This document shows positions 10,843-37,465 of a DNA stretch of 60,867 nucleotides, piece by piece. The stretch's first letter is position 1; every line of letters starts with the position of its first letter. Origin of the DNA: Verrucomicrobiia bacterium (GTDB lineage Bacteria; Verrucomicrobiota; Verrucomicrobiia; Verrucomicrobiales; DEV007); NCBI GenBank assembly GCA_030427505.1, contig JAUICH010000019.1, positions 64,001 to 124,867 of the forward strand. Direction: 5' to 3'. A program made the position numbers and the translations under genes. The notes beneath the pieces were generated by a model that made no database searches, had not been told where the DNA came from, and saw only the letters and a program-made list of their open reading frames with translations.

Positions 10843-10861
10843 GTCCTCCCACTTCCTTTTG

Positions 10862-12834: not shown

Positions 12835-12855
12835 CCGAAGCATTCTGTCACTATT

Positions 12856-13983: not shown

Positions 13984-14042
13984 CAGGTAATCTCAAAAGC
14001 AGTTTTCGCCGCGGAAAGACCGTCCCCTCCTCGCGCCATGAC

Positions 14043-16183: not shown

Positions 16184-16277
16184 CTTCGGGCAACGTTACC
16201 AGAATCTCAGGTCTCGCCAATCAATTCCGCCAGCCCACAACGAACTGACGGGCTTACCCAAACTTCCCACCGTTAAA

Positions 16278-18977: not shown

Positions 18978-19015
18978 TCGGCCGCCGGCGCCGGACGTTT
19001 TCCCAGCCTTCCCGC

Positions 19016-20155: not shown

Positions 20156-20171
20156 AGTGCCCACCCTCTCT

Positions 20172-21668
20172 TTATCGCCCCGGAGTCAGCTCGCTTTTTT
20201 CCTGACTTTCAGGCGCTTTTGCCGGAGAGGAATCCACGGTGGTCAGCCCCCGCCAATTGGGGGCCCCGAATTTTTTGATGCCAAGACACAGGGGCGTGAC
20301 GAAGCAGCTCGCCACGGTTTCGCGAGCGAGAGAGCCGCTCTCTCCCGTCAATTCACCGTCCGGAAGAGCGCCCAGACTGGCTATTTTCCAGGAGACGACT
20401 CCTTTGAATGGAAAATGAAACACCACGGTGGGCCCGTTGGAATCGAGAGTATTCGAAAGATTCAGGCGCCGCATTTCATGCTCGAAGATCTCCCAGAAAG
20501 TGGCGTGTTTCTTTTGCCTGACGACCTCCATTTCCAGCGCTTGAGAAACCAGGACGGCAAACCGGACTTCCTTTCGAGTTCCCAAAATGCGCTTCAGGTC
20601 AGCCGGAAGAGTTCGGAATTTTCCTACGTAACCGAGACCACGCAGGGCAATCAGGGCCACCAGGATCAGAAAACCCACGGACAACCCGATGCTGAGCGAT
20701 TTGTTAAAAATGGTACTTAGCGCCAGGACCGCCAGCGCAATAAAAACGCCGTAGAGAACGAACAATGCCTTACCCGAAGACATCCCGATGAGCAGGAGGC
20801 GGTGGTGGATATGGTCCGAATCTCCCCGCATGACCGGCACACCTTTCAGGAACCGGCGGCCAAAGGCGAAAATCGTGTCCAGGATGGGTACTCCCAGGGC
20901 GATGAGAGTCACGGTTAGGGACGCCCCGACATAGCTTTTCTGAGAGCTGTCGATGGTTGCGGCCGCAATGAAAAAACCAATGAAATAGGCGCCCCCATCC
21001 CCAAGAAAAATTCGAGCCGGCGGAAAATTGAAACACAGGAAGGCCACCGTCGCGCCGGCCAGCCCAAAACTCAGAAAGCCCAAGCCCTGCTGAAACTCGC
21101 TCAGCGCGCCGACAATTCCCAAAGTAATAAACAAAAACAGCCCGATACCGCCCGCCAGCCCGTCCATGCCATCCGCCAGGTTGATGACGTTGGGAATGGC
21201 CACCAGCCAGAGTACCGTGACCGCAAAGCTGATCGCTGGCGCCAGCGTTACCGCGGCTCCACTGACCGGGTTCGTCACCAAATCAATCCGCAGCCCGAGA
21301 ATCCACATCAAGATCGCGATCAATACCTGCGCGGCTAATTTGATCTTGGCGGAAAGGGGAACCAAGTCATCCCACAGTCCTAGAAGAAAAATCAGCGCCC
21401 CCCCTAAGCTAACCGCGCCCAACGATTCAAGATTGGGGATCTCTTCCAAAATCGCCATTCCTCCCGCCAAAATCGCGAAGGTTCCGAACACGGCCACGCC
21501 CCCCAGCCGGGGAACGGCCTTCGGGTGAGTCTTCCGCAGATCGTCAGGATGGTCCCAGCCTCGATGGGTTTCGCTTTTGCTCCGGGCCGTCAGCCTCAGA
21601 ATTGTCCAAATTCCGCCAAAGCAGCAAAGAAACCCCAGAATAACAGTGATGAGGAGAGGAACGGCCAT
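20172..21668 (-). CDS. WecA/TagO-like undecaprenyl-phosphate sugar-1-phosphate transferase
   Basis: I start at ATG 21668 (MAVPLLITVILGFLCCFGG), giving about 498 residues; the open frame extends to 22040 but the extra part has no homology. It has about ten membrane helices with family motifs: KAVPRLGGVAVFG, NVINLADGMDGLAGG (catalytic DD region), FPPARIFLGDGGAYFIGF and MRGDSDHIHHRLLL. It would load the first sugar phosphate onto undecaprenyl phosphate and start the glycan. The roughly 170-residue C-terminal extension after the last helices is longer than in E. coli WecA and resembles extended relatives in other phyla. Confidence 0.9.
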   Translation of the reverse strand: MAVPLLITVILGFLCCFGGIWTILRLTARSKSETHRGWDHPDDLRKTHPKAVPRLGGVAVFGTFAILAGGMAILEEIPNLESLGAVSLGGALIFLLGLWDDLVPLSAKIKLAAQVLIAILMWILGLRIDLVTNPVSGAAVTLAPAISFAVTVLWLVAIPNVINLADGMDGLAGGIGLFLFITLGIVGALSEFQQGLGFLSFGLAGATVAFLCFNFPPARIFLGDGGAYFIGFFIAAATIDSSQKSYVGASLTVTLIALGVPILDTIFAFGRRFLKGVPVMRGDSDHIHHRLLLIGMSSGKALFVLYGVFIALAVLALSTIFNKSLSIGLSVGFLILVALIALRGLGYVGKFRTLPADLKRILGTRKEVRFAVLVSQALEMEVVRQKKHATFWEIFEHEMRRLNLSNTLDSNGPTVVFHFPFKGVVSWKIASLGALPDGELTGESGSLARETVASCFVTPLCLGIKKFGAPNWRGLTTVDSSPAKAPESQEKSELTPGR

Positions 21669-22086
21669 TCGAAGTAGATACGTCCGACAATAGAAAGATA
21701 TGTCTGGCCACAGGCGGTAACGAAAGGGAGCCAATGCACACAGACCGTCCCCGGTTGGCGGGTTAAGCGCTTTCCGGCCATTTGTGTAGGCGGGATTTCG
21801 CTCCCTGGCAAGCGAGCAAGATCTCTGGCCGCGGAATGCTTTCCGCCCCGGTTTCCACCCCCAATCCGGGAAACTGCCGCCTTTCAGAGCTTTGCCAGTT
21901 TTCGAGCAACCCATTGAAAAGGCACGGATTCGAAAAATCCAGCACCCGGCGCCAACGCGCCCCCCCTTGCTGAAACTCCCTTCTCCCAAGGCGAATTCAC
22001 TTAACCAAAAGCATGACTTTTTTCTTAGAATACTGGACATTCCCTACCCTTATTTGGTAAGACTCTCAAACCCGCCCCCTTTTTCC
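21669..22086. other. Divergent intergenic region, WecA-like gene / Asp hydroxylase
   Basis: About 418 bases between divergent genes. The half nearer the hydroxylase is AT-richer. It contains a possible -10 box TAGAAT near 22027 with TTAACC about 19 bases upstream, a weak fit. Open frames crossing the region have no recognisable product. It marks the border between the polysaccharide locus and the RiPP/tail-collar block. Confidence 0.4.
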
Positions 22087-22710
22087 ATGGACCCAGTCCT
22101 GCTCCCTTCTCCCCCGCCAGAGACCCGTCTTCCCCCAGACCGTGTCCGGCTGCCGCTAGATTTTGACACCGCACGGCTGCGAAAAGATTTGGAAACCTTC
22201 TCCGAGGACGAGTGGATCGACCATTTTAATTCCCGTGACTACGAAGGCGTGTGGCGCATTCTGCCCCTGCGCGGGCCCGCTGGCGCGGAGCACCCCATCC
22301 TTCAGGCCTCCAGCCACTCCGGCACAAGAGATTGGGCCGACACCCCGTTCGCGGATCGTGCTCCGGCGTGCCGGGCGGTCATGCAGGCGTTCCGCTGCCC
22401 TCTAACCTCGGTGCGGCTCCTGAGCCTAGCTCCTGGCGCCCGCATTCTGGAACATTCCGATCCAGACTTGGGCTTCGAAGATGGGTTCGCCCGCATTCAC
22501 GTGCCGGTCCAAACCCATCCCGATGTGGAGTTCTATTTGAATGGAGAACGGGTGGTGATGGAGGAAGGGCAGTGCTGGTACTTGCGCCTTTCCGATCCCC
22601 ACCATGTCACCAATGGCGGTCCCGTTTCCCGCATTCATCTGATCCTGGATTGCGTGATCGACGACTGGCTGAAATACCTGCTGCTGGATGGAAACGACAC
22701 CCCTGAGTAA
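22087..22710 (+). CDS. Aspartyl/asparaginyl beta-hydroxylase-like 2OG-Fe(II) dioxygenase
   Basis: A 207-residue member of the Asp/Asn hydroxylase family. The iron site is ILEHSDPDLG (His123, Asp125) and DPHHVTNGG (His172/173). Arg182 and His184 in SRIHLILD are placed to bind 2-oxoglutarate. The core between them (ARIHVPVQTHPDVEFYLNGERV) is the usual jelly roll. Such enzymes hydroxylate Asp/Asn side chains of proteins or peptides. Here the substrate could be a product of the neighbouring tail-collar or lasso genes; that is inference. First gene of the block, overlapping the next by 23 bases. Confidence 0.88.
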   Translation: MDPVLLPSPPPETRLPPDRVRLPLDFDTARLRKDLETFSEDEWIDHFNSRDYEGVWRILPLRGPAGAEHPILQASSHSGTRDWADTPFADRAPACRAVMQAFRCPLTSVRLLSLAPGARILEHSDPDLGFEDGFARIHVPVQTHPDVEFYLNGERVVMEEGQCWYLRLSDPHHVTNGGPVSRIHLILDCVIDDWLKYLLLDGNDTPE

Positions 22711-23914: not shown

Positions 23915-24421
23915 ATGGCGGATCCATTTTTGTCTTCCATCCTGCCGGTTGGCTGGAGTTTTGCCTCCCACGGCTACGCCTTCTGCGATGGCCAGCTTTT
24001 GGCCATCAATCAGAACACCTCCCTGTATTCGCTCCTGGGTACCACCTATGGCGGAGACGGGCGGACCACCTTTGCTCTTCCGGACCTCCGCAGCCGCACG
24101 CCCGTGCATGGCCCCGGTAGCAGCTACCAGGGGCATCCCGGCGGCTCGGTCACGGTTATGCTCATAACCTCGGAACTACCCTATCACAACCACTCGTTCA
24201 ACTGTTACGAGCAACCGGGAAACCAGAACACTCCCAGTGGCGGCGTCCTCGCGAAGGCTCCTATCCCGGCGGTTTATCACCAAACTCAAGCCTCTCAAAC
24301 GGACATGAATTCCGCCATGATTCAACACACGGGAGGCTCGCAACCCCACAACAACCTGCAACCCTTCCTGACGATCAACTACTTGATCGCCACCTCGGGC
24401 GTCTACCCCAGCCGCAACTGA
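23915..24421 (+). CDS. Tail-collar domain protein 1 (microcystin-dependent-like)
   Basis: A 168-residue protein with the phage tail-collar/MdpB layout. The N-terminal unit is ILPVGWSFASHGYAFCDGQLLAINQNTSLYSLLGTTYGGDGRTTFALPDLRSRTPVH, followed by SVTVMLITSELPYHNHSF with the collar HNH, and QPHNNLQPFLTINYLIATSGVYPSRN. In phages this domain is part of tail fibres; in bacteria single-domain versions occur as standalone proteins of unknown role. There is no signal peptide. It differs from the two following paralogues by a Cys-containing middle loop (NCYEQPGNQN). Stand-alone genes in a RiPP context, with no other phage gene nearby, argue against a prophage. Confidence 0.9.
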   Translation: MADPFLSSILPVGWSFASHGYAFCDGQLLAINQNTSLYSLLGTTYGGDGRTTFALPDLRSRTPVHGPGSSYQGHPGGSVTVMLITSELPYHNHSFNCYEQPGNQNTPSGGVLAKAPIPAVYHQTQASQTDMNSAMIQHTGGSQPHNNLQPFLTINYLIATSGVYPSRN

Positions 24422-24463: not shown

Positions 24464-24985
24464 ATGAATCCATATATCGGACAGATCATCCTCTTCGCGG
24501 GAACTTTCTCTATCCAGAGATATGCTCTCTGCCACGGGCAGCTATTGCCAGTTTCTCAGAATCAAGCGCTATTTTCTCTCCTTGGCACGATGTACGGAGG
24601 CGATGGCCGGACCACCTATGGTCTTCCAGATCTGAGAGGCCGCATTCCTATTCACCGCGGCCAAGGCCCGGGCATTCCGTATGACTTCCGCCAGGGTAGT
24701 AAGGGTGGATCCGAAAAGGTGACGCTTGTCACATCGGAAATGCCCTCACACAATCACCTCAGCCGGGCGGTCTCCGCCGATGGTGATTCCGACGATCCCG
24801 TCAACAGGCAGTTGGCAGTGGTTCCCTCGCCATACGTTCTCTACACGACGAGCGGCAATCCGATCTCTTTCAACGCCAAGGCGGTGGGCTCTTCCGGGGG
24901 CACCCAAGCCCACAACAACATACAGCCGTCCATCGTAATGACTTACCAGATCTCTCTCTACGGCGTCTATCCCTCCAGAAACTGA
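24464..24985 (+). CDS. Tail-collar domain protein 2
   Basis: A 173-residue paralogue: GQIILFAGTFSIQRYALCHGQLLPVSQNQALFSLLGTMYGGDGRTTYGLPDLRGRIPIH, then KVTLVTSEMPSHNHLS and HNNIQPSIVMTYQISLYGVYPSRN. It keeps the canonical GQI-x-x-FAG-x-F opening of tail-collar proteins better than its upstream neighbour. The variable middle (residues about 105-140) is the part that differs among the three, as expected for a binding or modification surface. Spacing to the previous gene is 42 bases with a T-rich leader and no evident Shine-Dalgarno. Confidence 0.9.
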   Translation: MNPYIGQIILFAGTFSIQRYALCHGQLLPVSQNQALFSLLGTMYGGDGRTTYGLPDLRGRIPIHRGQGPGIPYDFRQGSKGGSEKVTLVTSEMPSHNHLSRAVSADGDSDDPVNRQLAVVPSPYVLYTTSGNPISFNAKAVGSSGGTQAHNNIQPSIVMTYQISLYGVYPSRN

Positions 24986-25038: not shown

Positions 25039-25569
25039 ATGTCAGAACCTTACATTGCCCAAGTTCAAATTTGGGGCTGTCTCTTTGCTCCGCGAATGTT
25101 TTCCTACACCGACGGTCAACTCCTCCCTATCGCCTCCAACACGGCGCTTTTCTCCCTCATTGGGATCATGTATGGCGGCGACGGCCGGTACAATTTCGCC
25201 CTCCCCAATCTTGAATACGGCGGCGACTATCCAGGCCGGACGGTCATGGGTAATGGCTCCGGGCCCGGCCTGACCACACGTGATGTGTCCAAAGTCCTGG
25301 GAACCGGGTCGGTCACTCTGACGGCGAGTCAAATGCCGCAGCACAACCACACCGCCATCGGCCATGATTCCAACAATGAAAACGACTCACCAACTGGGAA
25401 ATTCGTGGGGTTTCTACCGACGGGTTATCAATCCGGCGAGGGTGACAATACCATGGCGGATCAATCAATAAGCTATACTGGCGCGGGACAGTCCCATAAC
25501 AACTGGCAGCCCTATCTTACCCTGAACTATACCATCGCCGTCGCGGGTGTATACCCCGCCCGAAACTGA
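25039..25569 (+). CDS. Tail-collar domain protein 3
   Basis: A 176-residue paralogue: QVQIWGCLFAPRMFSYTDGQLLPIASNTALFSLIGIMYGGDGRYNFALPNLEY, SVTLTASQMPQHNHTA and SHNNWQPYLTLNYTIAVAGVYPARN. The loop after LPNLEY (GGDYPGRTVMGNGSGPGL) replaces the L-R-x-R-x-P segment of the other two. All three end in GVYP-(S/A)-RN. The middle region (DSNNENDSPTGK) is rich in Asp/Asn, a conceivable target for the block's Asp/Asn hydroxylase; this is only a compositional hint. Confidence 0.9.
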   Translation: MSEPYIAQVQIWGCLFAPRMFSYTDGQLLPIASNTALFSLIGIMYGGDGRYNFALPNLEYGGDYPGRTVMGNGSGPGLTTRDVSKVLGTGSVTLTASQMPQHNHTAIGHDSNNENDSPTGKFVGFLPTGYQSGEGDNTMADQSISYTGAGQSHNNWQPYLTLNYTIAVAGVYPARN

Positions 25570-26531: not shown

Positions 26532-26871
26532 CACTGGGTCTTTTTTTTCCGGGATTTCCAGAGGCCCTCGCCTCTCAAGTATTCTTTGTCCAGGCGGACC
26601 GGGCACTCTCTACGCCGCGGGAGCCGGCGCCCGCGGTGGCGCGGCGGCTGCCTGGAACACACCGTAGCGGTATAGGGGATGCCGAAGCCGCGGCGCCATG
26701 AGTTCGCGGCCGCGAATAGGTTGGGGATGGAAACGAACAGCGCTATATTGGCGGCTCAAGACGGGTTGAAGCGTGGGGATGGAATCCCGGCCGGCGGGAC
26801 GGGACACCAGCGCTTCTTCCCTGTTCTTTCCGTTGGCGATTCAGAGCCGGCGGAATAAGACTCATACCCCC
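26532..26871. other. GC-rich intergenic region with palindromes
   Basis: About 340 bases between the GNAT gene and the chosen start of the sulfotransferase gene. It contains CCGCGGG...CCCGCGG near 26610-26635, which can form a strong stem, and the perfect 14-base palindrome TTCGCGGCCGCGAA at 26703-26716. No convincing gene is visible. It may separate two transcription units. Confidence 0.45.
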
Positions 26872-27843
26872 ATGGAGCCCGGATCTTGCCATCTTCCCTT
26901 TCTGCCCCCCCCATGTCTATTGGTACCCTACCAGGTTGTTCAACGCGGTCCATTTTCCCTACTCCAGTGGCACCTTGCTCCGGGAACGAAGGGTCTTCCC
27001 CCAAAGATGGCGCCGCTTCTCAGAACTCTAGGGCAGGTGTCTTACTCCAAACTGGAGGAATTGGAGCAAATTCTGTCGGTAGGCCCGCTTTTGGAGCCAG
27101 CGCTGTTCATTTTCCACATCAGCCGGTGCGGCTCCACCCTGACGGCCCGCGCGTTGAGTTTGAACCCGGCGAATCGCGTGTTCAACGAGCCCACCGTCAT
27201 CTCTCAACCTCTGTTTTGGGACAAACTGCCTTCCGAAGTACAGAGTCATGTCTTCCGTTGCCACGGCCTGGTACCGGAATCCGGCCGGGAACAGCGGCTG
27301 ATCATTAAATTCGCCCCTTTTGCACTATTCCGGCTGCCTCGCATTCTGGAGCTGTTTCCGAATGTGGAAAAGTGGTTCGTCTTTCGCGATCCGCTGCCGG
27401 TGCTGGTGTCTAATCTTCTGAGAAAAGCCAGCTTTCTGGACCCGAAACGCACGGAAGAGATCGCCTGGACCTTGGGCGAGGATCCGGCAGATCTCTCGGC
27501 GATGCGGGAGCCCGCCTTCGCGGCCCACATTCTGGGACGGCAGGCGGAAGTCGCGGCCCGGCACCTGAATGAATTCGACCGGGTCCTGAACTACCGGGAT
27601 TTCCCCGGAACACTGATCGATGGCTGCCAACAGTGGTGGGACGAAGTTCCTCCCGGCGTGGAACACACTCTGAGCCGCTATGCCAAGGATACCAGCCGGC
27701 CGTTTGTTCCCGATGAAGAATCTAAGATCCAAGCCGCGACGGAAGAGATGCGCTCCGCCTGCTCGGAATACTGCGATTCCGCTTGGCAAATGCTAGAATC
27801 AGCCATCCGCGAGCGTCTTAGGATTGCGCGGCCCGCGCCCTGA
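26872..27843 (+). CDS. Sulfotransferase-like protein
   Basis: A 323-residue protein from ATG 26872 (a longer frame starts at 26773). FIFHISRCGSTLTARAL (Ser84-Thr89) is the 5'-phosphosulfate loop and WFVFRDPLPVLVSNLLRK (Arg172, Ser180) the 3'-phosphate site of PAPS-dependent sulfotransferases. The spacing of about 90 residues is normal. Cytosolic, no signal peptide. It lies 33 bases before the second PqqD gene, so it is a good candidate RiPP tailoring enzyme, though it could also sulfate sugars of the nearby glycan. Acceptor unknown. Confidence 0.8.
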   Translation: MEPGSCHLPFLPPPCLLVPYQVVQRGPFSLLQWHLAPGTKGLPPKMAPLLRTLGQVSYSKLEELEQILSVGPLLEPALFIFHISRCGSTLTARALSLNPANRVFNEPTVISQPLFWDKLPSEVQSHVFRCHGLVPESGREQRLIIKFAPFALFRLPRILELFPNVEKWFVFRDPLPVLVSNLLRKASFLDPKRTEEIAWTLGEDPADLSAMREPAFAAHILGRQAEVAARHLNEFDRVLNYRDFPGTLIDGCQQWWDEVPPGVEHTLSRYAKDTSRPFVPDEESKIQAATEEMRSACSEYCDSAWQMLESAIRERLRIARPAP

Positions 27844-27876
27844 TACTATTCATGGGGTTCCTTTCCCACGCAGGTC

Positions 27877-28173
27877 ATGAAGATAACCCTCGATACCGTA
27901 GTCACCCAGAAGCCAGATCTCCTTTCCAGCAATCTGGATGGGGAGACCATTCTCCTGGAGATCGAAAAGGAAGTCTATTACGGGATGAACCGCGTCAGTA
28001 CCCGGATTTGGGAACTGCTCGGAGAACCCAGAAAACTGTCCGCCATCTGCGAGGAACTTCTCAAGGACTACGCGGTGGAGCGGGAACAATGCGAGCAGGA
28101 GGTACTGACATTCGTTCAAAAACTGGCCAGCGAAGGGCTGATCTCGGAATGCACGGAGACACCGGCGCCCTAG
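27877..28173 (+). CDS. PqqD-like RiPP recognition element protein (lasso B1), second copy
   Basis: A 98-residue RRE protein: LLSSNLDGETILLEIEKEVYYGMNRVSTRIWELLGEP, then LSAICEELLKDYAVEREQCEQEVLTFVQKLASEGLI. This is a cleaner PqqD than the one at 1.2 kb, and the two share the YGMN/GMN-x-x-x-TRIW segment, so they are paralogues. It should bind the leader of the precursor at 30459. The TAG stop is formed at the junction with a MITE-like element, which now separates it from the cyclase gene. Confidence 0.87.
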   Translation: MKITLDTVVTQKPDLLSSNLDGETILLEIEKEVYYGMNRVSTRIWELLGEPRKLSAICEELLKDYAVEREQCEQEVLTFVQKLASEGLISECTETPAP

Positions 28174-28368
28174 TGCACTGACCGCCTTAAAATGATGAGC
28201 GCTTGGTCTGAACAAAGAGCCGTTGGCGGCAGGGCGGGAACCGGTCTTTTTGGCTGGGGTCTTCGTTGCTCTTCAGTCAGTTATGATTCACATAGCCTCC
28301 TTCATCGCGCCTTGCCCCCAGCCAAAAATCCTCGCCAATCACCCATCATCTTAAGGCGGTCACTGCAC
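28173..28368. mobile_element. MITE-like element A between B1 and cyclase
   Basis: A 196-base segment with 25-base terminal inverted repeats (28173-28197 and 28344-28368) differing at two positions, flanked on both sides by TA. Inner parts also pair (28247-28259 with 28316-28328), so the whole element can fold into a long hairpin. It encodes nothing. Short size, inverted ends and TA flanks fit a non-autonomous element moved by an IS630/Tc1-type transposase, which as I recall targets CTAG. The PqqD stop codon TAG spans its left junction. Confidence 0.75.
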
Positions 28369-28386
28369 TAGGAGCCTGTCGGACTT

Positions 28387-28599
28387 GGCAGTGTGGACAA
28401 ACTGGAGAACGGATCGGAAATGAAGAAAAGGAAAGAGAACTCAGCGGCGCGAAGCGGCGAATACCTGAAGACGCGGCCCATTTTTCGCCTGGCTTCGTTC
28501 CCGCTCTCTCTATTGGGGGTAGGCCCAATGCCGTTCACGGCGCCTTGTCAGCCCAAAAATGATCTCGCGCCGGTCCGCCCCCAATTTGTCCACACTGCC
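28387..28599. mobile_element. MITE-like element B, copy 1
   Basis: A 213-base element with ends GGCAGTGTGGACAAACTGG and CCAATTTGTCCACACTGCC, one mismatch in 19. The same 213-base sequence recurs at 52291-52503 with about 22 differences by eye. The right flank is TA, the left flank TT, so the duplication is not intact here. Short open frames inside both copies are side effects of the conserved sequence. It lies 26 bases before the cyclase start and may influence its expression. Confidence 0.85.
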
Positions 28600-28624
28600 T
28601 AGGTTTTTCCTGGCGAGAAGATCC

Positions 28625-30421
28625 ATGAGCGCGATTTTTGGAATCTTCCGAAAGTCTGGCGAGACGGTGGCGAAAGACACATTGAGCGCCATGCGGGCGC
28701 CTCTCGCGGGCTGGGGAACGGAGAGGCAAGGCGTGTGGAAGGAAGGCCCGGCGGGACTCGGCCATTTGCTCAGCGCGGACACGCCAGAGTGCGCCTTCGA
28801 ACGCCAGCCCATCGTCCGGGAAGGTTTCGCGCTGGTGGCCGACGCCCGGATCGACAACCGGGAGGAACTGGCGCCGGTTCTCGAACTTCCCGCGAACGCT
28901 TCCTTTCCTGACAGCGAATTTATCTTTCGCGCCTGGTTGCGCTGGGGGGAAGAGTGCCCACACCACCTGCTGGGAGACTACGCCTTCGCCATCTGGGACC
29001 TGGAGCGGCGCTCTCTGTTTTGTGCCAGGGACCACATCGGCGCCCGTCCTTTCTTTTACCATGATGGGCCGGAGTGCTTCGTGTTCGGTTCGGACTTGCG
29101 CGCGGTTTTGGCTGTCACCGAAGTTCCCGAACGGGCGAATGAAGAATTCGTCATGCTGAACTGCATGGTCGGAGCCCAATGCCTGACCCACGGGCGCACG
29201 GCTTTTCGGGACATTGCCCGGCTGCGGCCCGGCCATGTGCTTTTCGCCAATTCCCACCAGACGAAGGTCCCGCGATACTGGCGCCCAGACCGCGTTCCCC
29301 GCCGCTCTTTTTCCAGCCCTGACGAGATGGCGGCGGATCTCCGGCCTCTTTTGGAAGAGGCGGTCCGTTGCCGCCTGCGTTCGGCCGGCCCCGTGTCGGC
29401 GCATCTGAGTGGGGGGCTCGACTCGACAGCGGTCACCCTCCTCGCCAAAGACCTGCTGAAGGGTTCCCCTCACCCCCTGCGCCAGGTATTTTCCTGGTCG
29501 CCACCCTTTTCCGCCGTGCCGCGTCTGGAAGAAGATGAAAGGGACCGGATCGAGCAGATTTGTAACTCCGCGGACCTGGAGTGTTTCTGGACGGAGATTA
29601 CGCCGGACTCCCTTCGAACGGCTTTTTTGGAGCGCGATGTCTTCCGGGAATTTCGCTACGCCTGGATCCACGAACTTTCCGTGAGCGAACAGGCCCGGGA
29701 CAGGGGCATCCGCACCATTCTCTCCGGTTGGGGAGGCGACGAGGGCATCACCTTCCCCGGGCCACCCCACATCTGGTGGGAGTTGACTTGGCGGGGAAAG
29801 TGGAAGGATCTGTGGAGAGGCGTTACCTTCCGGACACGCCTGGACAACGGTTCCCGCGTCGCAAATCTGCTGAGGATGGCATTCTGGCATCCCCTGAAAA
29901 CCAGGCTGCTCTATTGGACCGGCCGGATCAATCTCCCCAGCCATTTCAGGCAAGCTGCCTCGGGGCTCGCCCCGGAGGAGGTTCCCATTTTCAGAAAAGC
30001 CCTGCGCCTGACCCACCACCCGCGCGCCAGCGTCCGCGCGGCGCAACTCTGGCGCATTGTGGGCAGCGGCCACCTGGAACGCCGGCTCGAGTCCTGGGCC
30101 GTGCTGGGGGCACGCACCGGCATCAGTTATCGTTATCCCTGGCTGGACCGGCGGGTACTGGAGTTCGCGCTCGCCCTTCAGCCGAAGTGCTACATCTGGG
30201 ACGGGCGAAATCGCCTGCCCCTCCGCCATGCTCTGAGCGATCTGCTGCCAGGGGATCTCTTGCAGGGAACCAAGCCGTCCGAACCCGCCTTGATCAAGCA
30301 CCATCAATCGGCCATGGCCAAAACACCCGCCCTGCCCTCAACCGGTTATACACTCGCGGACCGGTGGATTCGCCGCCAGCGGTTGGCCGGGAAATCCATT
30401 GACAAACCGGAAGTTACTTAG
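28625..30421 (+). CDS. Lasso cyclase (asparagine-synthetase-like, C protein)
   Basis: A 598-residue AsnB homologue from ATG 28625. The N-terminal glutaminase-like domain begins MSAIFGIFRKSG, with Ser in place of the catalytic Cys2, so it cannot use glutamine normally. The synthetase domain has AHLSGGLDSTAVTLLAK (ATP-pyrophosphate loop, residues about 262-267) and TILSGWGGDEGITF. In lasso systems this enzyme adenylates the Asp/Glu side chain and closes the macrolactam with the first core residue. The immediately following precursor gene and HprK-like kinase support a lasso role over asparagine synthesis. Confidence 0.9.
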   Translation: MSAIFGIFRKSGETVAKDTLSAMRAPLAGWGTERQGVWKEGPAGLGHLLSADTPECAFERQPIVREGFALVADARIDNREELAPVLELPANASFPDSEFIFRAWLRWGEECPHHLLGDYAFAIWDLERRSLFCARDHIGARPFFYHDGPECFVFGSDLRAVLAVTEVPERANEEFVMLNCMVGAQCLTHGRTAFRDIARLRPGHVLFANSHQTKVPRYWRPDRVPRRSFSSPDEMAADLRPLLEEAVRCRLRSAGPVSAHLSGGLDSTAVTLLAKDLLKGSPHPLRQVFSWSPPFSAVPRLEEDERDRIEQICNSADLECFWTEITPDSLRTAFLERDVFREFRYAWIHELSVSEQARDRGIRTILSGWGGDEGITFPGPPHIWWELTWRGKWKDLWRGVTFRTRLDNGSRVANLLRMAFWHPLKTRLLYWTGRINLPSHFRQAASGLAPEEVPIFRKALRLTHHPRASVRAAQLWRIVGSGHLERRLESWAVLGARTGISYRYPWLDRRVLEFALALQPKCYIWDGRNRLPLRHALSDLLPGDLLQGTKPSEPALIKHHQSAMAKTPALPSTGYTLADRWIRRQRLAGKSIDKPEVT

Positions 30422-30458
30422 CATGTTCAGAACTTGCTCGTACAATCGCGAAGAGTTC

Positions 30459-30635
30459 ATGAACGATCATCCAAATTCACACGAGAAACCGCCTGCTGAG
30501 GATCAAGTGCGTCACATGTGGGAAACGCCGGAATTGGTTGTTTTGGATCTGGTGGCTAATACCCTCACTGGGACACCAAATTCGGTTGAAACTACCGTTT
30601 TCGCCGGGACTCCTGCTGGCCCCGGCTCTTCTTAG
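30459..30635 (+). CDS. Lasso peptide precursor, paeninodin-like leader
   Basis: A 58-residue peptide starting at ATG 30459 with GAAGAG upstream; the frame extends to 30399 inside the cyclase gene but that part is not needed. The leader has MWETPELVVLDLVANTL, matching the W-x-x-P-x-L-x-x-L-D...T pattern of paeninodin-type precursors. With Thr35 at leader position -2, the core would start at Thr37, and Glu44 would close an eight-residue ring; starting at Gly38 gives a seven-residue ring. The tail is short and Gly/Pro-rich with one aromatic residue (Phe48) and ends in Ser-Ser, a possible kinase target. Located between cyclase and kinase genes. Confidence 0.82.
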   Translation: MNDHPNSHEKPPAEDQVRHMWETPELVVLDLVANTLTGTPNSVETTVFAGTPAGPGSS

Positions 30636-30652
30636 AGCAAGTCCATGATCTA

Positions 30653-31552
30653 TTGACCAGCTACCGTTACAGGGCGTATGGGCTGGAGATCTCTTCTTTT
30701 TTGGTTCTTCCCGAACTAGCGGCGGGAAATCCCGGCCTTCTTCCGGACATAACCATCGCCGAGGGGCCGGTTCCCGACACACTCCCAGACGCGGTCTTCC
30801 GTGGAAAGCGGGATGAAGTCAATAGAAGCCGCCACTTGGCTAATCTTGAGGAATCGAACGGCGTCCGCTTCCTGATCGAAGACGGATCTCGAATTACCGT
30901 CGAGCGCCGGAAAGAACCCGTGGATGAGATCCTGCTCGGCCTGCAGATATTGGGAACGGCCATGATTTCCGCCGCCTGCCAGCGTGGCATGGCCACCCTG
31001 CACGCGGCCGCTCTGAGCAATGGGCGGGAAGCCATCCTGATCGGCGGTCTTTCCGGAATGGGGAAATCCACCTTGGCATTCGCCCTGTGGAAACGGGGCT
31101 GGGACCTGATTTCCGACGATGTGGCCTCGCTGGAAGTCAGCAAAACTCCACCCGTGGTTCAACCGGGGTATCCGCGTTTCAAACTTTACTCTAAAAGCCT
31201 GGAACTTCTGAGCACTGCCACGGAGAATCTGAGCCGCATCCACCCCTCCCTGGAAAAGTACTACGTTCCGGCGGGTGACAGATTTGAAAACCACCCCCGG
31301 GAATTGAAGAGAATCTTTCTTCTGGCGCCCTCGGAACAGACTCGATTGCGCCCTCTACTCAGACAGGAAATGTTTCGGGAATTGCAGGCCCATTTGCGGC
31401 CTGGATTTCGAGTGGCGCAACGCAATTGGCCCTGGCTTCTGCCCGCGCTGGGAAAGATTGCTTCGCATGCTCCCGTGCGGGTGATCGAACGGCCGCCCCA
31501 ATCCGATCTGGAGGGGTTGGTCCGATTAATTGAGGAAGACCTCAAACGATGA
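30653..31552 (+). CDS. HprK-like kinase (lasso peptide kinase)
   Basis: A 299-residue protein starting at TTG 30653, 17 bases after the precursor. ILIGGLSGMGKSTLAFAL is the Walker A (131-140), TLHAAAL precedes it as in HPr kinases, and WDLISDDVASLEV holds the acidic pair. The N-terminal 110 residues are specific to the RiPP-associated branch (SYRYRAYGLEISSFLVLPEL). ThcoK and related kinases phosphorylate the C-terminal Ser of paeninodin-type precursors; the Ser-Ser end of the adjacent precursor fits this. It overlaps the next gene by ATGA. Confidence 0.85.
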   Translation: MTSYRYRAYGLEISSFLVLPELAAGNPGLLPDITIAEGPVPDTLPDAVFRGKRDEVNRSRHLANLEESNGVRFLIEDGSRITVERRKEPVDEILLGLQILGTAMISAACQRGMATLHAAALSNGREAILIGGLSGMGKSTLAFALWKRGWDLISDDVASLEVSKTPPVVQPGYPRFKLYSKSLELLSTATENLSRIHPSLEKYYVPAGDRFENHPRELKRIFLLAPSEQTRLRPLLRQEMFRELQAHLRPGFRVAQRNWPWLLPALGKIASHAPVRVIERPPQSDLEGLVRLIEEDLKR

Positions 31553-32058
31553 CTCCAGACATGGGCGCCTACGCCGTCATCGCTGTTCTGGGAATCTGGC
31601 AAGGGCTCCTCATCGCCACCCAACTACCAAAGTTCCGCCATCCCGTGGAACGCCTCAGGTTGAAAGTTTTTCCCGCCTGGCCAGTATTCCGGGGCCGGCT
31701 AACCACGCTAATAATCTACTATCGGGACCTTGGGGAGGACGGCACTCCAGAACCTTGGAAAGAGCTATCCCTCGACCATCATCGCGGTTGGTTTTCGACT
31801 ATTTGGAATCCGGAAAGCTGGCGGGTGGCCTCCGTGAAAGCAATGCTTGTCACCCTTGCTATTCTGGTGGAAAACCCGGAAGGCCGCAAAAAGCCGCTGG
31901 AGGAATACCACAGATATAAAGCGGTCGAATACTACATCCGGCAACAAACCAGAGAGCCCGGTAGCCGTCGCCGCCAGTTTCGGATCCTGCGTTCATGGGG
32001 CCATATTCCCATCCGTTCGCGCAAGGAAGTCTTTGTCTCACAACCTTTTCCATTGTGA
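31549..32058 (+). CDS. SdpA-like small membrane-anchored protein
   Basis: A 169-residue protein with one N-terminal hydrophobic helix (YAVIAVLGIWQGLLIATQL), then a soluble part: FPAWPVFRG, LIIYYRDLGEDGTPEPWKELSL and a basic C-terminus. The layout resembles the SdpA/DUF5819-type partners that occur with HTTM proteins. The next gene is an HTTM-like protein and overlaps by GTGA. In the Bacillus sdp system SdpA and SdpB mature a peptide toxin. Homology here is by pattern only; I would not exclude an unrelated family. Confidence 0.5.
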   Translation: MTPDMGAYAVIAVLGIWQGLLIATQLPKFRHPVERLRLKVFPAWPVFRGRLTTLIIYYRDLGEDGTPEPWKELSLDHHRGWFSTIWNPESWRVASVKAMLVTLAILVENPEGRKKPLEEYHRYKAVEYYIRQQTREPGSRRRQFRILRSWGHIPIRSRKEVFVSQPFPL

Positions 32059-32885
32059 CGGCCGCTCAGTTTGACGATCCGTTTACCTGCATTCACTGGA
32101 TCGCCCGGCTCCATGGCCTGGCGGTGTGTGTCGTAACGCTTGAATTGCTGGGGGCCCACCGGATTTTTTCCCGAAGCGGCCCTCAAAGCTGGGAAATTGT
32201 CAGCCAGTGCCTGCCAGGCATTAAAGCCTCCGGACTATATCCGCTCTTTTTTTCCTATCCCGCGTTTTGCGGCTGGCTGGCCGCCCGGTCGGCCGCGGGT
32301 GCCGTCCTCTTTTTCACGCCCAGCGATCCCCGGTTCGCCATTCCCTCATTGGCCGTGATTCTGCTGGTCCACACTCTATACGACATTCGAAGCTTGGGAT
32401 TCGTAGGTTCCGTTACTCTTCAAATGCTGGGAGTCATCACGGGGGCCCTCCTGCTCCGCGCTTTTGCTTGGGATAGCGACCTGGCAACCCGGGCCGTGGT
32501 TATTTTCATTGGTGTGAATGCGGCGCTGGCGTACTTCTTCTCTGCTCTCTGGAAGCTGCAAGACAAATACTGGCGCTCCGGAGAACAGATTTTTAATGTT
32601 TATAACAATGGATCTCTGGGCCGTGCCTCCCTGGCCCGGTTTTTTCACGAGAGACCGGGCCTGACTCGCGTGCTGACTTGGAGCACCATAGGAGTGGAAC
32701 TGATCTTTCCGCTGGTCTTGATCGTAGGGTCTCCCGCTTGTTACGTGTTCATCGGGTGGAGCTATTGCTTCCACGTTTTCAATTGGGCCGCCTTGGGATT
32801 GCGGGGGTTTACGCTGACCTTCGCGGCCACTTGGCCCGCCATGATTTACGTGAGCCGGCTCTTCCACGAATGGATCTTTCGTTGA
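32055..32885 (+). CDS. HTTM/SdpB-like polytopic membrane protein
   Basis: About 276 residues from GTG 32055 with roughly eight hydrophobic segments. LAYFFSALWKLQDKYWRSGEQIFNVYNNGSLG matches the HTTM/SdpB hallmark in which an aromatic-rich helix is followed by K-x-x-x-x-Y-W-x-x-G. LTWSTIGVELIFPLVLI is the next HTTM-like helix. These proteins are related to vitamin K-dependent carboxylase membrane domains. It pairs with the upstream SdpA-like gene and may act on a secreted peptide or protein of this block. Confidence 0.65.
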   Translation: MTAAQFDDPFTCIHWIARLHGLAVCVVTLELLGAHRIFSRSGPQSWEIVSQCLPGIKASGLYPLFFSYPAFCGWLAARSAAGAVLFFTPSDPRFAIPSLAVILLVHTLYDIRSLGFVGSVTLQMLGVITGALLLRAFAWDSDLATRAVVIFIGVNAALAYFFSALWKLQDKYWRSGEQIFNVYNNGSLGRASLARFFHERPGLTRVLTWSTIGVELIFPLVLIVGSPACYVFIGWSYCFHVFNWAALGLRGFTLTFAATWPAMIYVSRLFHEWIFR

Positions 32886-32966
32886 CTGCTCTTACCACGG
32901 CTTTCGGTCCACGTAAGAAACCGATCGTTGTTGCTTCGACACGGTTGACACCTCAAGATATTCCAG

Positions 32967-33776
32967 ATGCAAGCAACTCCGGATTCAGCTCAGGAGAACC
33001 CCAGAGCGGTCGAACTCACTGCCTACCAGATTTGCGAATGGGAAGTGCCCATCGTTCCGGCCTCTTATCGCCGGGACTGGATGATTCCGCACGCTTACCA
33101 CTGCCTTCCCATGACCCTGGCCAATCAGTCAGGATGGTTTCTCCTCTTGCCTCATGAAATCACCGCCGTGTGGGACGGTAGCGACTCCGAAAAAGGCTTA
33201 ACGATCTCCTTTCCAGACGGCAAAACGCCGGATTTCGTCATGGCCAAAAGTCATTTCGGGCAGGGAATTGTCTCCTTCGGGGTGCCTTTTCTCTTCAGGA
33301 CCTCTCCCGGATACGATCTGGTGATCAAGGGGCCTTCCAACTACATTCTTCCCAACGCACAGGCATTGGAGGGACTTATTGAGGCGGACTGGTCTCCCAT
33401 GTCCTTCACCATGAACTGGAAACTCCACTCCCCGGGCATCCCGGTGACCTTCCGGGCGGGCGAACCTTATTGCATGATTCATCCCCAACGCCGCGGTGAC
33501 ATCGAGTCCACCCGGCCAGAGATCCGCCGCCTGGAAGAAGATCCAGCATTGAAGGAGGAATTTCTCGCGTTTCTTCAGAAAAGGAATTTCAACCGGGCCC
33601 ACAACAAGTTTCGGCAAATCGAGCGGGAAAAGAAAGCCCAGACCCGCCTTCAGGCCTATGATCGCGACTATTTCCTAGGCCGGAAGGTCACGGATCCGAA
33701 GCCGATTGAAGGACACCGCCTCCGGCTGAATTTGAAGCCTTTTAGAGATCTGAGAACTCCATCTGAAAAACGATAA
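32967..33776 (+). CDS. DUF6065-family protein
   Basis: A 269-residue protein. YHCLPMTLANQSGWFLLLPHEITAVWDGS, SHFGQGIVSFGVPFLFRTSPGYDLVIKGPSN, LEGLIEADWSPMSFTMNWKLHSPGIPVTFRAGEPYCMIHP follow the DUF6065 pattern as I remember it, over the usual length. The C-terminus is basic and helical (NKFRQIEREKKAQTRLQAYDRDYF). In other genomes I associate this family with 2OG-Fe(II) oxygenases, and here a decayed oxygenase lies just downstream. Function unknown. Confidence 0.75.
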   Translation: MQATPDSAQENPRAVELTAYQICEWEVPIVPASYRRDWMIPHAYHCLPMTLANQSGWFLLLPHEITAVWDGSDSEKGLTISFPDGKTPDFVMAKSHFGQGIVSFGVPFLFRTSPGYDLVIKGPSNYILPNAQALEGLIEADWSPMSFTMNWKLHSPGIPVTFRAGEPYCMIHPQRRGDIESTRPEIRRLEEDPALKEEFLAFLQKRNFNRAHNKFRQIEREKKAQTRLQAYDRDYFLGRKVTDPKPIEGHRLRLNLKPFRDLRTPSEKR

Positions 33777-33837: not shown

Positions 33838-34290
33838 TACTGGAGTGGTGAAATTCCCGCCCTCAAGATCCCCGGATTCTTGCGGGTGGAGCGACCGGAG
33901 CAGCTCTACCAATTTTTCACAAGTTCGTCCACGATCTAAGATCTCCTGAACGGGTCGAATACTTTTCCCTGCTGACCCAGACTGCCCATACCGGTTGGAA
34001 CGGCCTTTCCGCCAGGCATTTGGCCCCGGTGACTTTCTCCGTCCTCATAACGGCCGCCATGGGAACCGTAGAATCGCTTTCATATTCTACCTAAATCGGG
34101 AGTGGTCTCCGGAACTTGGTGGCGGACTTCGCGTTGAGCGAGAAGGAACCGGAGAACTATTTTTCCCTTACGAATACAACAGCTTAATCTGTTCTGAAGT
34201 TGTGGGGCACTCCTCCCATCGGATCGGTCCCATCGAAAAACCGAGGGAGGCAGGATCCGGTTCAACGCGGGCGGCTGGTTCAAAGGGGTC
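33838..34290 (+). pseudogene. Degraded 2OG-Fe(II) oxygenase (prolyl-hydroxylase-like)
   Basis: Fragments of one protein can be read in different frames. GEIPALKIPGFLRVERPEQLYQFF lies near the 5' end and runs into a TAA. FGPGDFLRPHNGRHGNRRIAF with IFYLNREWSPELGGGLRV, FPYEYNSLICSEVVGHSSHRIGPI lies further on. The second part is the jelly-roll core of a small oxygenase of the type Y-x-x-G-D-F-L-x-x-H-x-D; the Asp of H-x-D is replaced by Gly. Frame changes, an internal stop and loss of an iron ligand indicate a dead gene. Sequencing error cannot be ruled out for the frame changes but does not explain the missing Asp. Confidence 0.65.
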
Positions 34291-34330
34291 CGGAGAGCGG
34301 GACGGCTGCCACGTCCAGATCCGGCGAGTA

Positions 34331-37300
34331 TCAAGGCGCCGCCCGGTGGAGGCGATAGCGATGTCCGGCGGGGAACGGCCCCTCCAGTACGGTCTCTTCG
34401 CCATCCGGCCACCGTACTTCGATACGTTCCACTTCTTTGACGTCACCCAATCCGAAGTTCGCGATGGGAGCATTGAAGGAAAGATAGCCGCCGCTCGCTT
34501 TGATCTCCCGGATCTGTTGGCCGCCTGGGTAACGAATAATGACCTGGGCTCCGATGCCGAAGTGGTTCCCTGCTTCATCCGCCAGTTCCACGGAAAGCGA
34601 GTTGGCGCGGCCGGCGCTCAGATTCTTGTGCCACTCCACTGGCCCCATCAGAGGCACGACGATCAAATCCACGTCTCCATCGAGGTCAAAGTCCGACTGG
34701 GTAAAGGACATCGTCTCCAAATAGGTTCCCACGCCTTGAGCCTCCGTTACCTCATTAAACCCATCTCCTCCCTGATTCAGAAAGAGGTGATTCGGCTCAT
34801 GAAGACTTTGGCCAGACATGCCGTTGACACAAAACAGATCCTGCCAGCCATCCAAGTCGAAGTCCACGAACTGGGCGTTCCAAGTCCATCCCGTGTATTT
34901 GACTCCCCATTCTTCCGTGACCTCCGCGAAGTCCCCTCCTTCCCCCATTGAAAGCAGCACATTGCGATCACGGACTTGGGGAATCTGTTTCTCTTTCTCC
35001 TCTTCCGTTGGCTGGTAGTTTGGCATGCGCATCCGTTCGACATGCCAGCTCATGTCCGCCCGCGACCGCGGAATATAGTCAAGATAGTGATCGAAATCAC
35101 TATTTACGGCGACATGGGAGAACACAAAATAACCAAAACTGTTCTGACGTTCTCTGTCATTCCAATCCAGCTGACCCTTTAGAGAATTGGCGTTCGAAGA
35201 ATAGCGGAACATGGGCTGAAGTTTTGCCAACCGCAGGTGTTGCTCCCGCAACTCCCGGCCGGGCAATTCCATGGCCATCTTCTCACGGGATTTCCCTACC
35301 TTTCGCTCTCTTCCCAAGCCGCCACCCGAAATATTCACCGAAAACAGTTCCGGACGCAGATCGTTGTTCAAGTCCCCAACCTCATAGCACATGTTGAAAT
35401 ACGGAGTGACGGGGATGGGACATTGGTCTTTCGATGCCGGGGTCAGGTTTAACTCCGCGCTCCCCGGATAGTATGAGTCTGGCTCGTCATAGTCGTTCCC
35501 CACCAGAATGTCGGACCAGCCATCTTGATCGATGTCACTGACGAGAATGGACAGCGTCTCGGCGGGCGGCCCCTGGAGTACCTGGAGATCGTGGCCTCCT
35601 CCGGGCCGGGAGAGCAGAACTTCATTGCGAGAAGACTCCGGTCCCCAACCCTTTCTTATCGCGACACTCCAACCGATCGTCCAGTTTCCCAGCACGGCAT
35701 CCAGCTGCCCATCCCGGTTAAGATCCGCGAACGCCGCCGCGCCAAGCAAACTGTATTTCCGGCGATTCACCTGTACGGGCTCTCCCGTGAAGGCGCCTTC
35801 CTGGTTGCGAATCCAGTAGCTTCCCTGACGGAAGGTCCCAAAGAAAAGATCCAACCAACTGTCGTTGTCCAAGTCCACCAGTGCTGTCAGGACCACCGTT
35901 TCTTTCGCAAGAGAACCCAGGTTCACTTCCTGCGCGACAAACCGGTCACCGTGCAGGTTGCTAAAGAGGGTCAGCCCCCCCGCGTAGAAATCGTTGGCGA
36001 TCACCAAGTCCGGCCACCCGTCTCCATGGACGTCTCCGGAAGCCACCGGGCGGCCATGCAAAGGGCGGTATTCCACCAAACGGTCCGTCGTTATCACGAA
36101 GGGCGAATCCACCCCAATCTCGCTTGCGAGGTGATTCTCAAAGATCCGCTCTCCCTCCGTCTTTTCGGTGCCACCAAAAGCGGCTTGTTCCACCGTTACC
36201 CGGCCGGCATTCGATGATTTCTCCACCGGAACCCAAACGGTGCGGAACGGATCCAATTCGGCTCTGAGCGCGGCCAGTGGCTTGCCTTCCGGTCCGGGCG
36301 GCGCTACTGGCGCCGGGGTTTCGGAACTTTCCGCAAAGTTCGTCAGGAGATCTTTCTCCAGCCAGGACTCGTTGGCCTTGTCTAAATAGTGAGCACAGAC
36401 TCCCGAGGCAACGCCCATCCCCATCACCGTCGCGAAAATGGCCACCGCCAGACTCTTGGACATGTCCCGGTAAATGACCAGAAAGGCCAGGATGCTGTAG
36501 ATCCCGGTCGTAAAAAGAACGGGCATCACATACTTGGCCGGCAAACCAGCGGCATAGAGCGAGGCCGCGAGAATCACATCCATCGCCATGGGAACGGGTA
36601 AAAACGTACCTACCGCGGCCACCACGAACATGACGCCCACCGTGGCGAGAATACCGTGGGTGGCGAGCTGATTGAGAATATTCTCGGTCGGGACGAATTC
36701 GTTCACGACCGACCCCAGAAACCCGGCGGCGACCATGAACGGAACGGTCAAAACACAGATTACGAGCAGATTGCGCCCCAGGTTCTTCCCGAACCACCAG
36801 ATCGAACTCCACCACCCCGGTCGCGGCTCGGCCGGTTTCACCGGGTCGCAGGGCGTTTCGGCCAGCTTTTCTCCCTTGATCCTGCCCTGCCAGACGCGGC
36901 CGGCCAGCGGCACGCACACCAGGATCAGCAGGAGGGAAAACACAATCTTCACCACCGCGAAGTGCCAGGGAAACAGCGTGAAGATCATGGAAATCACCAC
37001 CACGTTGAACGTGGGGGAACTGAACATGGTGGCCAGGGACATCTCCAGGCAACTGCCCCCCGCGTGCATCCCCCGCATAATGGGCGTCGCGCAGTTCACG
37101 CAGACACCCAGCGGGCTGCCCAGCGCGAAGCCGGCCAGAGTATTGGCATAGCGGCTTTTGAAGTTTCTGCGGGGGAACAAAGCCAACGCGGTCATCACCC
37201 CCGCGGCGAGAAGGAGACCGAACTTCATGCCCCGCTTATTGGCGTGGAGCCAGTTGACCGTCCCTTTGGCAATCCGCATCCAGGCACCGTCTTCAGGCTC

Positions 37301-37465
37301 CACGCTCCAGGCCGCCCCCAAACCCAGGGTCTGGAGATCCGAAACGGCGCCCATCGCCGCCTTGGCGTTTAGTTCCGGATACCGTGAGCCGGTCCAAAAC
37401 TTGAAGCCGATGATGCCGACAAAAATCAAACAGAACAGGAAGCGCTTATCCAAGAGAATTCGCAT
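34331..37465 (-). CDS. Permease (ArsP/YraQ-like) fused to FG-GAP/UnbV-like repeats
   Basis: A 1044-residue two-part protein. Residues 1 to about 370 form a permease with LGVCVNCATPIMRGMHAGGSCLEMSLATMFSSPTFNVVVISM, the duplicated inner motif of the DUF318/ArsP permease family, and LPVPMAMDVILAASLYAAGLPAKYVMPVL. Residues about 470 to 1044 hold FG-GAP/VCBS repeats with Ca-binding D-x-D-x-D-G loops (DLNRDGQLDAVLG, DIDQDGWSDILVGND, DFDLDGWQDLF, DFDLDGDVDLIV) and a C-terminal ASPIC/UnbV-like module (VIIRYPGGQQIREIKASGGYLSFN). The beta-propeller would face outside the inner membrane. Substrate unknown. It stands alone on the minus strand. Confidence 0.85.
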   Translation of the reverse strand: MRILLDKRFLFCLIFVGIIGFKFWTGSRYPELNAKAAMGAVSDLQTLGLGAAWSVEPEDGAWMRIAKGTVNWLHANKRGMKFGLLLAAGVMTALALFPRRNFKSRYANTLAGFALGSPLGVCVNCATPIMRGMHAGGSCLEMSLATMFSSPTFNVVVISMIFTLFPWHFAVVKIVFSLLLILVCVPLAGRVWQGRIKGEKLAETPCDPVKPAEPRPGWWSSIWWFGKNLGRNLLVICVLTVPFMVAAGFLGSVVNEFVPTENILNQLATHGILATVGVMFVVAAVGTFLPVPMAMDVILAASLYAAGLPAKYVMPVLFTTGIYSILAFLVIYRDMSKSLAVAIFATVMGMGVASGVCAHYLDKANESWLEKDLLTNFAESSETPAPVAPPGPEGKPLAALRAELDPFRTVWVPVEKSSNAGRVTVEQAAFGGTEKTEGERIFENHLASEIGVDSPFVITTDRLVEYRPLHGRPVASGDVHGDGWPDLVIANDFYAGGLTLFSNLHGDRFVAQEVNLGSLAKETVVLTALVDLDNDSWLDLFFGTFRQGSYWIRNQEGAFTGEPVQVNRRKYSLLGAAAFADLNRDGQLDAVLGNWTIGWSVAIRKGWGPESSRNEVLLSRPGGGHDLQVLQGPPAETLSILVSDIDQDGWSDILVGNDYDEPDSYYPGSAELNLTPASKDQCPIPVTPYFNMCYEVGDLNNDLRPELFSVNISGGGLGRERKVGKSREKMAMELPGRELREQHLRLAKLQPMFRYSSNANSLKGQLDWNDRERQNSFGYFVFSHVAVNSDFDHYLDYIPRSRADMSWHVERMRMPNYQPTEEEKEKQIPQVRDRNVLLSMGEGGDFAEVTEEWGVKYTGWTWNAQFVDFDLDGWQDLFCVNGMSGQSLHEPNHLFLNQGGDGFNEVTEAQGVGTYLETMSFTQSDFDLDGDVDLIVVPLMGPVEWHKNLSAGRANSLSVELADEAGNHFGIGAQVIIRYPGGQQIREIKASGGYLSFNAPIANFGLGDVKEVERIEVRWPDGEETVLEGPFPAGHRYRLHRAAP

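Follow-up and report, generated by a model that had tools for sequence, protein, structure and literature searches.

A permease joined to a CRTAC1-type propeller in a Verrucomicrobiia bacterium: a recurring protein family and a candidate inner-membrane transporter with a tethered partner

ArsP_1 permeases –formerly DUF318– and CRTAC1/ASPIC proteins, which combine FG-GAP repeats with an UnbV domain, are the described families closest to the two halves of the gene presented here. CRTAC1-type propellers are known in vertebrates and are abundant in relatives of the bacterium under study, and we know of no test of the role of a bacterial one. The gene lies in a window –the whole stretch of DNA analysed– of 60,867 nucleotides from contig JAUICH010000019.1 of a Verrucomicrobiia bacterium (assembly GCA_030427505.1), where a single frame encodes an ArsP_1 permease followed by a CRTAC1-type propeller. 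Both component families are known, and the fused and repeatedly re-formed pair is undescribed in the open-access literature that was searched, where no account of a permease/FG-GAP/UnbV (CRTAC1) fusion was found. Among described transporters, SO_0444 is reported as necessary for Shewanella when zinc or copper causes stress (PMC3219624), and induction by cadmium and copper is reported for a transporter of its family in Nitratiruptor (PMC10092412); an anammox paper uses the term 'CRTAC1 family protein' and also has nirK and FG-GAP (PMC12758564).

The fusion gene occupies positions 34331–37465 of the window on the minus strand as an uninterrupted frame of 1044 codons, and the plus-strand reading of the same interval contains stops. 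The first-pass annotation, made from the letters alone and giving no strand, had described a continuous 1044-residue frame joining a DUF318/ArsP-like permease to several calcium-binding D-x-D-x-D-G repeats and an UnbV-like end. The frame was exactly as described, and its composition was borne out by Pfam matches above curated cut-offs and by full-length homologues. The ArsP_1 family (PF03773) matched residues 102–358 (36392–37162; 44.3 bits vs. a cut-off of 32.3), which makes the protein an ArsP_1 member. The propeller, with a boundary judged from the alignment and the structure model, spans about residues 442–960 (34586–36142) and matched FG-GAP_3 in five stretches (97.1 bits vs. 26.9) and FG-GAP (39.4 bits vs. 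22.1). With the UnbV/ASPIC domain at residues 970–1030 (34376–34558; 68.1 bits vs. 23.4), the protein also belongs to the CRTAC1/ASPIC-UnbV family. Motifs of the form D-x-[DN]-x-[DNSG] start at residues 531, 581, 644, 698, 868, and 925, and a PHROG search with the whole protein gave no match.

The fusion is a real protein family and no artefact, since bacteria that are only distantly related share its architecture. Searching 72,556 plasmid records with the permease part (tblastn) gave eight matches, every one from Rhodobacterales and named 'FG-GAP-like repeat-containing protein', and seven of these records hold a single-frame fusion. An earlier scan of genomes with a single protein as query had produced 74 stretches matching a pattern and no confirmed relative. 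The scan of 84,980 genomes with an alignment of seven of the plasmid copies plus the window protein found 99 relatives, and the best 80, together with the eight plasmid loci, form our set of 88 loci. The same domain order, which the first-pass annotation had proposed looking for in other genomes, was present as one uninterrupted, full-length, collinear fusion in 84 of them. The four others were a Parasedimentitalea plasmid copy broken by frame changes (L038, 10055–13076), a copy split into two genes (L113), a permease whose contig runs on for 2.4 kb with no propeller match (L118), and a match truncated where its contig stops (L121). An assembly or gene-call error joining two genes was thus ruled out by the single-frame homologues, seven plasmid records among them; nothing was found in its favor, and we regard its probability as negligible.

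By record title, the best 80 genome loci were mainly from Alphaproteobacteria (Rhodobacterales, Maricaulales, and others), and the remaining ones from Gammaproteobacteria, Myxococcales, Bdellovibrionales, one 'Deltaproteobacteria', and two Roseivirga. Full-length fusions therefore span four phyla besides that of the window: Pseudomonadota, Myxococcota, Bdellovibrionota, and Bacteroidota. The distribution is skewed to Rhodobacterales because the query alignment was rich in them. In the phyla sampled around the window, Myxococcales, 'Deltaproteobacteria', and Roseivirga genomes, the fusion is rare and patchy. Within the phylum of the window, the full protein at E 1e-30 was found in one of 288 sampled genomes, its own, and the permease matched weakly (18–21 bits) in three other genomes of the same order, i.e., in 4/288 with its own. 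Counting the query genome each time, the permease model matched 4/187 genomes around the Myxococcales genome, 5/188 around the 'Deltaproteobacteria' genome (G543; four of the matches are shared with the Myxococcales sample), and 3/247 around the Roseivirga genome. The window copy was likely acquired horizontally. We also observed a Roseivirga-titled metagenome-assembled genome (G541) with three fusions and differing neighbours (L061, L149, L150), and a Bdellovibrionales fusion of 1285 residues (L116) in which some 320 residues separate the aligned permease end from the propeller start (11093–12052).

The history of the two halves speaks for a joint function. The permease tree had 41 rows. Of these, 27 were fused copies (the window, 20 from the set of 84 loci, and six others), six were split copies, and eight were the ordinary ArsP_1 rows that matched the permease model. 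Fused and split permeases formed a clade of 33 rows apart from those eight (support 100/99), several of whose outgroup branches are long. In the propeller tree (52 rows), the 29 fused or secondarily split propellers were monophyletic (100/100) and apart from 19 ordinary CRTAC1-type proteins, which came only from relatives of the window bacterium. The roots of both trees are midpoint only. The window protein thus resembles ArsP_1 permeases in its Pfam match, but unlike ordinary ones it belongs to a separate clade whose members carry a propeller or pair with one; likewise, it shares the repeats and UnbV domain of CRTAC1/ASPIC proteins, whereas its propeller is joined to a transporter, falls in a clade of its own, and has a helical insert at about residues 727–825 in the model.

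Split copies are of two kinds. The first are L113 (Porticoccus) and L146 (from G543, which also holds a fused copy, L147), which grouped together within the fused clade in the permease tree as well as in the propeller tree (100/99 for the sister pair); the gene was therefore probably split once, with both halves kept adjacent. In L113 the permease and propeller genes overlap by 20 nt, and both L113 and L146 propellers have, as read by eye, a signal-peptide-like start. At positions 9971–14698 of L113 we observed a truncated permease start, an intervening open reading frame (ORF) that presumably resembles a REP-type transposase, and then the split pair.

The second kind was found in one Bacteroidota class, where four of the 244 genomes searched have a permease of the sister branch adjoining a propeller gene (L151, L152, L160, L161). 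An overlap of 8 nt between the two genes is seen in L151, L152, and L160, and the longest propeller ORF overlaps in L161 too. The L151 permease is 84% identical to that of L152 and 65% to that of L161. While the CxxC motif of the fused form is CVNC or CANC, the L151 and L152 permeases have CSAC. These propellers grouped with ordinary CRTAC1 proteins (100/97) and, read by eye, have an N-terminal hydrophobic stretch. Because they group there and the fused propellers are monophyletic, the trees indicate that the same permease clade gained a CRTAC1 partner at least twice.

The halves twice occur as adjacent genes, which supports the view that permease and propeller work together as a functional pair. 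The signal-peptide-like or hydrophobic N-termini of the split copies likewise support an extracytoplasmic propeller. In the first-pass annotation the two modules were said to occur normally in separate proteins; this is true of generic family members and fails for this permease clade, where they are fused or paired. The annotation had also suggested that the propeller may capture a ligand or partner for the permease at the periplasmic face: the pairing and the side of the membrane agree with the split copies, and the capture of a ligand is conjectural.

At the structural level, the AlphaFold2 model of the fusion (53 alignment rows) had a mean predicted local distance difference test score (pLDDT) of 84.6 and a predicted template modelling score of 0.77. 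The model is helical up to about residue 378 and continues with strands that hold the helical insert, followed by the end domain. Structure prediction, another step that had been proposed for this protein, agreed with the domain reading: among 827 PDB matches to the full-length model, mouse CRTAC1 (9etn) ranked top, aligned through the propeller with E 5.5e-20 and a template modelling score by target of 0.66, i.e., the CRTAC1 fold. Modelled alone, the permease reached a pLDDT of 81.6, and Foldseek gave no match with E < 0.001 for this model. The VIA aligner ranked elevator-type transporters first (NaDC3 with Z 11.1, Pho90 with 10.6, ArsB –10tp– with 9.8), and the tool itself cautions that, for a helical model, the packing of the helices may be enough to give Z values of this size. 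The predicted permease fold thus ranks the IT-superfamily elevator transporters (NaDC, INDY, Pho90, and ArsB) first at Z 9–11, but with about 10% identity and a root mean square deviation of 4–8. An elevator-like fold is weakly suggested by the model.

Our preferred reading, to which we give a probability of roughly 40%, is that the protein is an inner-membrane transporter from a distinct ArsP_1 clade with a tethered periplasmic propeller for handing over its cargo. The single chain would be a two-part device. Its N-terminal half would be a secondary transporter, probably an elevator, in which the CxxC is invariant and so is an Asp in the opposite half of the permease; its C-terminal half, a CRTAC1-type propeller plus UnbV domain, would be held on the outer side of the membrane. 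Some small cargo would be moved outward by the transporter and handed over locally to an exported or surface protein docked on the propeller. The occurrence as one chain or an adjacent pair, the shared inheritance within the fused clade, and the surface-export context are observed. Direction, docking, hand-over, and a soft-metal cargo –copper as the best guess– are what we infer. Under this reading CRTAC1-type propellers may be client-binding partners of a transporter, a function that can be tested.

The surface-export context comes from the neighbours of the 84 fused loci, counted by clustering of ORFs and then with hidden Markov models (HMMs). Since the loci are related to one another, the counts do not stand for independent events. 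With HMMs, two secreted proteins of an alphaproteobacterial partner set were detected, one of about 140–150 residues in 68/84 loci and one that is tail-fibre-like in 62/84; by clustering alone, Sel1-repeat proteins were found in 53/84, and an A24 prepilin peptidase or a pseudopilin of the type II secretion system (T2SS) in 38/84. Cluster names follow the annotation of L035 and similar records, plus reading. None of these clusters was found in twelve loci (L043, L044, L047, L061, L063, L074, L081, L082, L085, L098, L105, and L116). Gene order varies among Rhodobacterales, Maricaulis, and Robiginitomaculum/Hellea, and the gene set is retained. In 16 hand-picked genomes, all of them fusion-bearing, the small secreted protein was always present, as a single copy in 13; by coordinates it lay inside the fetched fusion locus in 14 and outside in L104 and L068. 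The fusion, two Sel1 proteins, the small secreted protein, the tail-fibre-like protein, and often T2SS genes make up a discrete genetic module. Culture-collection strains, Maricaulis maris DSM 4734 among them, carry it and would allow its deletion and assay.

Among 92 of the 95 immediate same-strand neighbours that were scanned, the most frequent families were DUF7933 (8), DUF11 (7), and Sulfotransfer_3 (6), followed by T2SSK_1st, Sulfotransfer_1, and Peptidase_S74 (5 each), and Sel1 and DUF2793 (4 each). For twelve other loci, 89 hand-picked neighbour proteins included AMP-binding (5, as proteins and not loci) and Condensation, MBOAT, GATase_7, Glycos_transf_2, Sulfotransfer_1, 2OG-FeII_Oxy_3, and Asn_synthase (3 each). 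A sulfotransferase model matched 28/96 sources, an undercount since it misses some that the records annotate (L035, L036). The fused form thus sits in surface-export and surface-glycan islands. Searches of the open-access literature found nothing joining FG-GAP, type II secretion, and Roseobacter.

This context could also mean that the permease is mainly an anchor and the propeller a periplasmic docking platform for surface export (T2SS, tail-fibre-like proteins, surface glycan), with transport incidental. The Sel1 and T2SS counts, the sulfotransferases together with MBOAT, glycosyltransferase, and sulfotransferase genes near other loci, and the gene set kept despite reordering in Maricaulis, Robiginitomaculum, and Hellea all agree with it. 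However, twelve permease residues are invariant in 57/57 aligned fused rows (C122, N124, C125, P128, S150, P151, N154, P290, P292, D296, G321, and S324). They include the CxxC motif C122-V-N-C125 (37091–37102, minus strand), the Ser-Pro-x-x-Asn and PxP motifs, and the Asp, a degree of conservation unexpected for a mere anchor, and the same permease clade was twice paired with a CRTAC1 propeller. We therefore consider the anchor explanation somewhat unlikely.

Regarding the small secreted family, a 24-row alignment (loci L045–L122) has the consensus AxWFENWxGLSNATL, and one tested member had no Pfam and no PHROG match; this uncharacterised family goes with the fusion in alphaproteobacteria. Although 5/92 neighbours match S74, that label was not upheld for the tail-fibre-like cluster as a whole, as two tested representatives had no S74 match –one of them had a weak match to a phage tail fibre.

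Copper enters the proposal through the Bacteroidota pairs. Genes for SCO1, an FGE-like protein, and a copper nitrite reductase (351.5 bits vs. an NCBIfam cut-off of 296.3) adjoin the pair of L152. The pair of L161 is followed, some 5 kb downstream, by another copper nitrite reductase gene (353.1 bits). A nitrite reductase relative with a cupredoxin domain, below the cut-off (133.9 bits), is found about 2 kb upstream in L151, with CopD on the other side. Positions and strands differ among the three loci, which argues against simple synteny, but the permease identities given above weigh the other way. No copper gene was found in L160 within the 7.3 kb on one side, and on the other L160 ends 0.6 kb past the permease. 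The best NCBIfam match of the L152 permease was the SO_0444 Cu/Zn transporter (57.7 bits, below the cut-off of 300). Nothing linking UnbV to copper was found in the open-access literature searched.

In the fused form, five NirK/NirV/SCO1/CopD queries (E 1e-6) matched none of the 84 loci within up to 10 kb on each side, giving no linkage to nirK, and no metal-resistance or ars family was among the 25 most frequent families of the 92- and 89-neighbour sets. The metal or metalloid genes that the first-pass annotation proposed seeking beside homologues were thus missing from the fused form, whereas in three of the four independently paired split loci a copper nitrite reductase or its relative is no more than 10 kb away. 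Copper is a weakly supported best guess for the cargo. A wider proposal would have the permease export a cofactor, probably Cu(I), which its own propeller would present to exported proteins during maturation. The device would have been assembled at least twice from the same permease clade, with NirK as its client in one lineage and systems for surface export in the others; we hold this to be unlikely.

An efflux pump for metal or metalloid resistance with a metal-buffering periplasmic propeller would fit the ArsP_1 membership of the fusion protein, the reported need for SO_0444, another permease called a Cu/Zn efflux protein, under zinc and copper stress (PMC3219624), and the weak match of the window protein to the SO_0444 model. 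However, that match (NF033936) was of 17.9 bits and the one to SaoE (NF040736) of 19.2 bits, far from the equivalog cut-offs of 300 and 325, respectively, and no resistance family appears among the 25 commonest in either neighbour set. We judge such a pump quite improbable. The same holds, and with still greater doubt, for a thiol/disulfide electron conduit in which exported proteins in the periplasm would receive reducing power through the CxxC. The invariant CxxC and six Cys columns of the propeller insert, nearly invariant in the alignment of homologues, are in its favor, but the window protein has none of those insert cysteines, and the 25 commonest neighbour families include none of thioredoxin type, yet SCO1 lies near one split pair (L152).

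Several observations weigh against the transporter with a hand-over propeller that we prefer. The elevator match is weak (Z of about 11 and no Foldseek match with E < 0.001), and the propeller may be a docking scaffold without any part in transport. As for the cargo, none of the fused loci carries the sought copper genes, the copper case comes from three Bacteroidota loci that are related to one another, with no background control, while the fourth shows none, and the window protein has the low scores given above against SO_0444 and SaoE. Moreover, the window lacks the alphaproteobacterial partners, and the context differs between lineages.

HMMs for these partner genes –the small secreted and the tail-fibre-like protein– matched nothing in the window, and no Peptidase_S74 was found in its genome. 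A surface theme is nevertheless common to the window copy and the other fused loci. Surface-polysaccharide genes at 10859–22040 comprise an epimerase, four GT4-type glycosyltransferases, and a glycosyltransferase family 4 protein (PF00953), together with an O-antigen polymerase match just below the cut-off. Three tandem phage tail Collar proteins follow on the plus strand (Pfam; 23915–24421, 24464–24985, and 25039–25569). They are three of the four Collar matches in the whole genome, and we noticed no other phage gene adjoining them. Collar proteins were also found near fusions in five of the 88 loci (L035, L062, L073, L076, and L088).

Between the Collar trio and the fusion, a plus-strand cassette (26773–33776) encodes a sulfotransferase-like protein, PqqD, an AsnB/lasso-cyclase-like protein, an HprK-like protein, two ORFs without a Pfam match (31549–32058 and 31995–32885), and DUF6065. 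The sulfotransferase-like and HprK-like genes are below the Pfam cut-off; the former was rejected as a sulfotransferase call (22.6 vs. 27), and the sulfotransferase model missed it. The cassette is lasso-peptide-like: PqqD passes NF033536 (83.7 vs. 80), and the cyclase-like protein scores 353.7 vs. the NF033535 cut-off of 525. In the open-access literature searched, nothing was found linking tail collar proteins with PqqD.

Next to the fusion, a 3′ fragment of a 2OG-Fe(II) oxygenase (33995–34330, plus strand) is convergent with the fusion gene and ends against it; its upstream part is closed in the same frame. On the other side lies a MoxR gene, and the genes after it are presumably a Bat-type operon. 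The 169-residue ORF and DUF6065 of the cassette were in none of the 88 loci. Other pieces of it recur near fusions elsewhere: sulfotransferase, PqqD, AsnB, and HprK in Erythrobacter L085, AsnB in Erythrobacter L098, an Asn synthase protein in Roseivirga L150, and, in Roseivirga L061, HprK, the 296-residue ORF, and the Asp hydroxylase found at 21892–22710 of the window.

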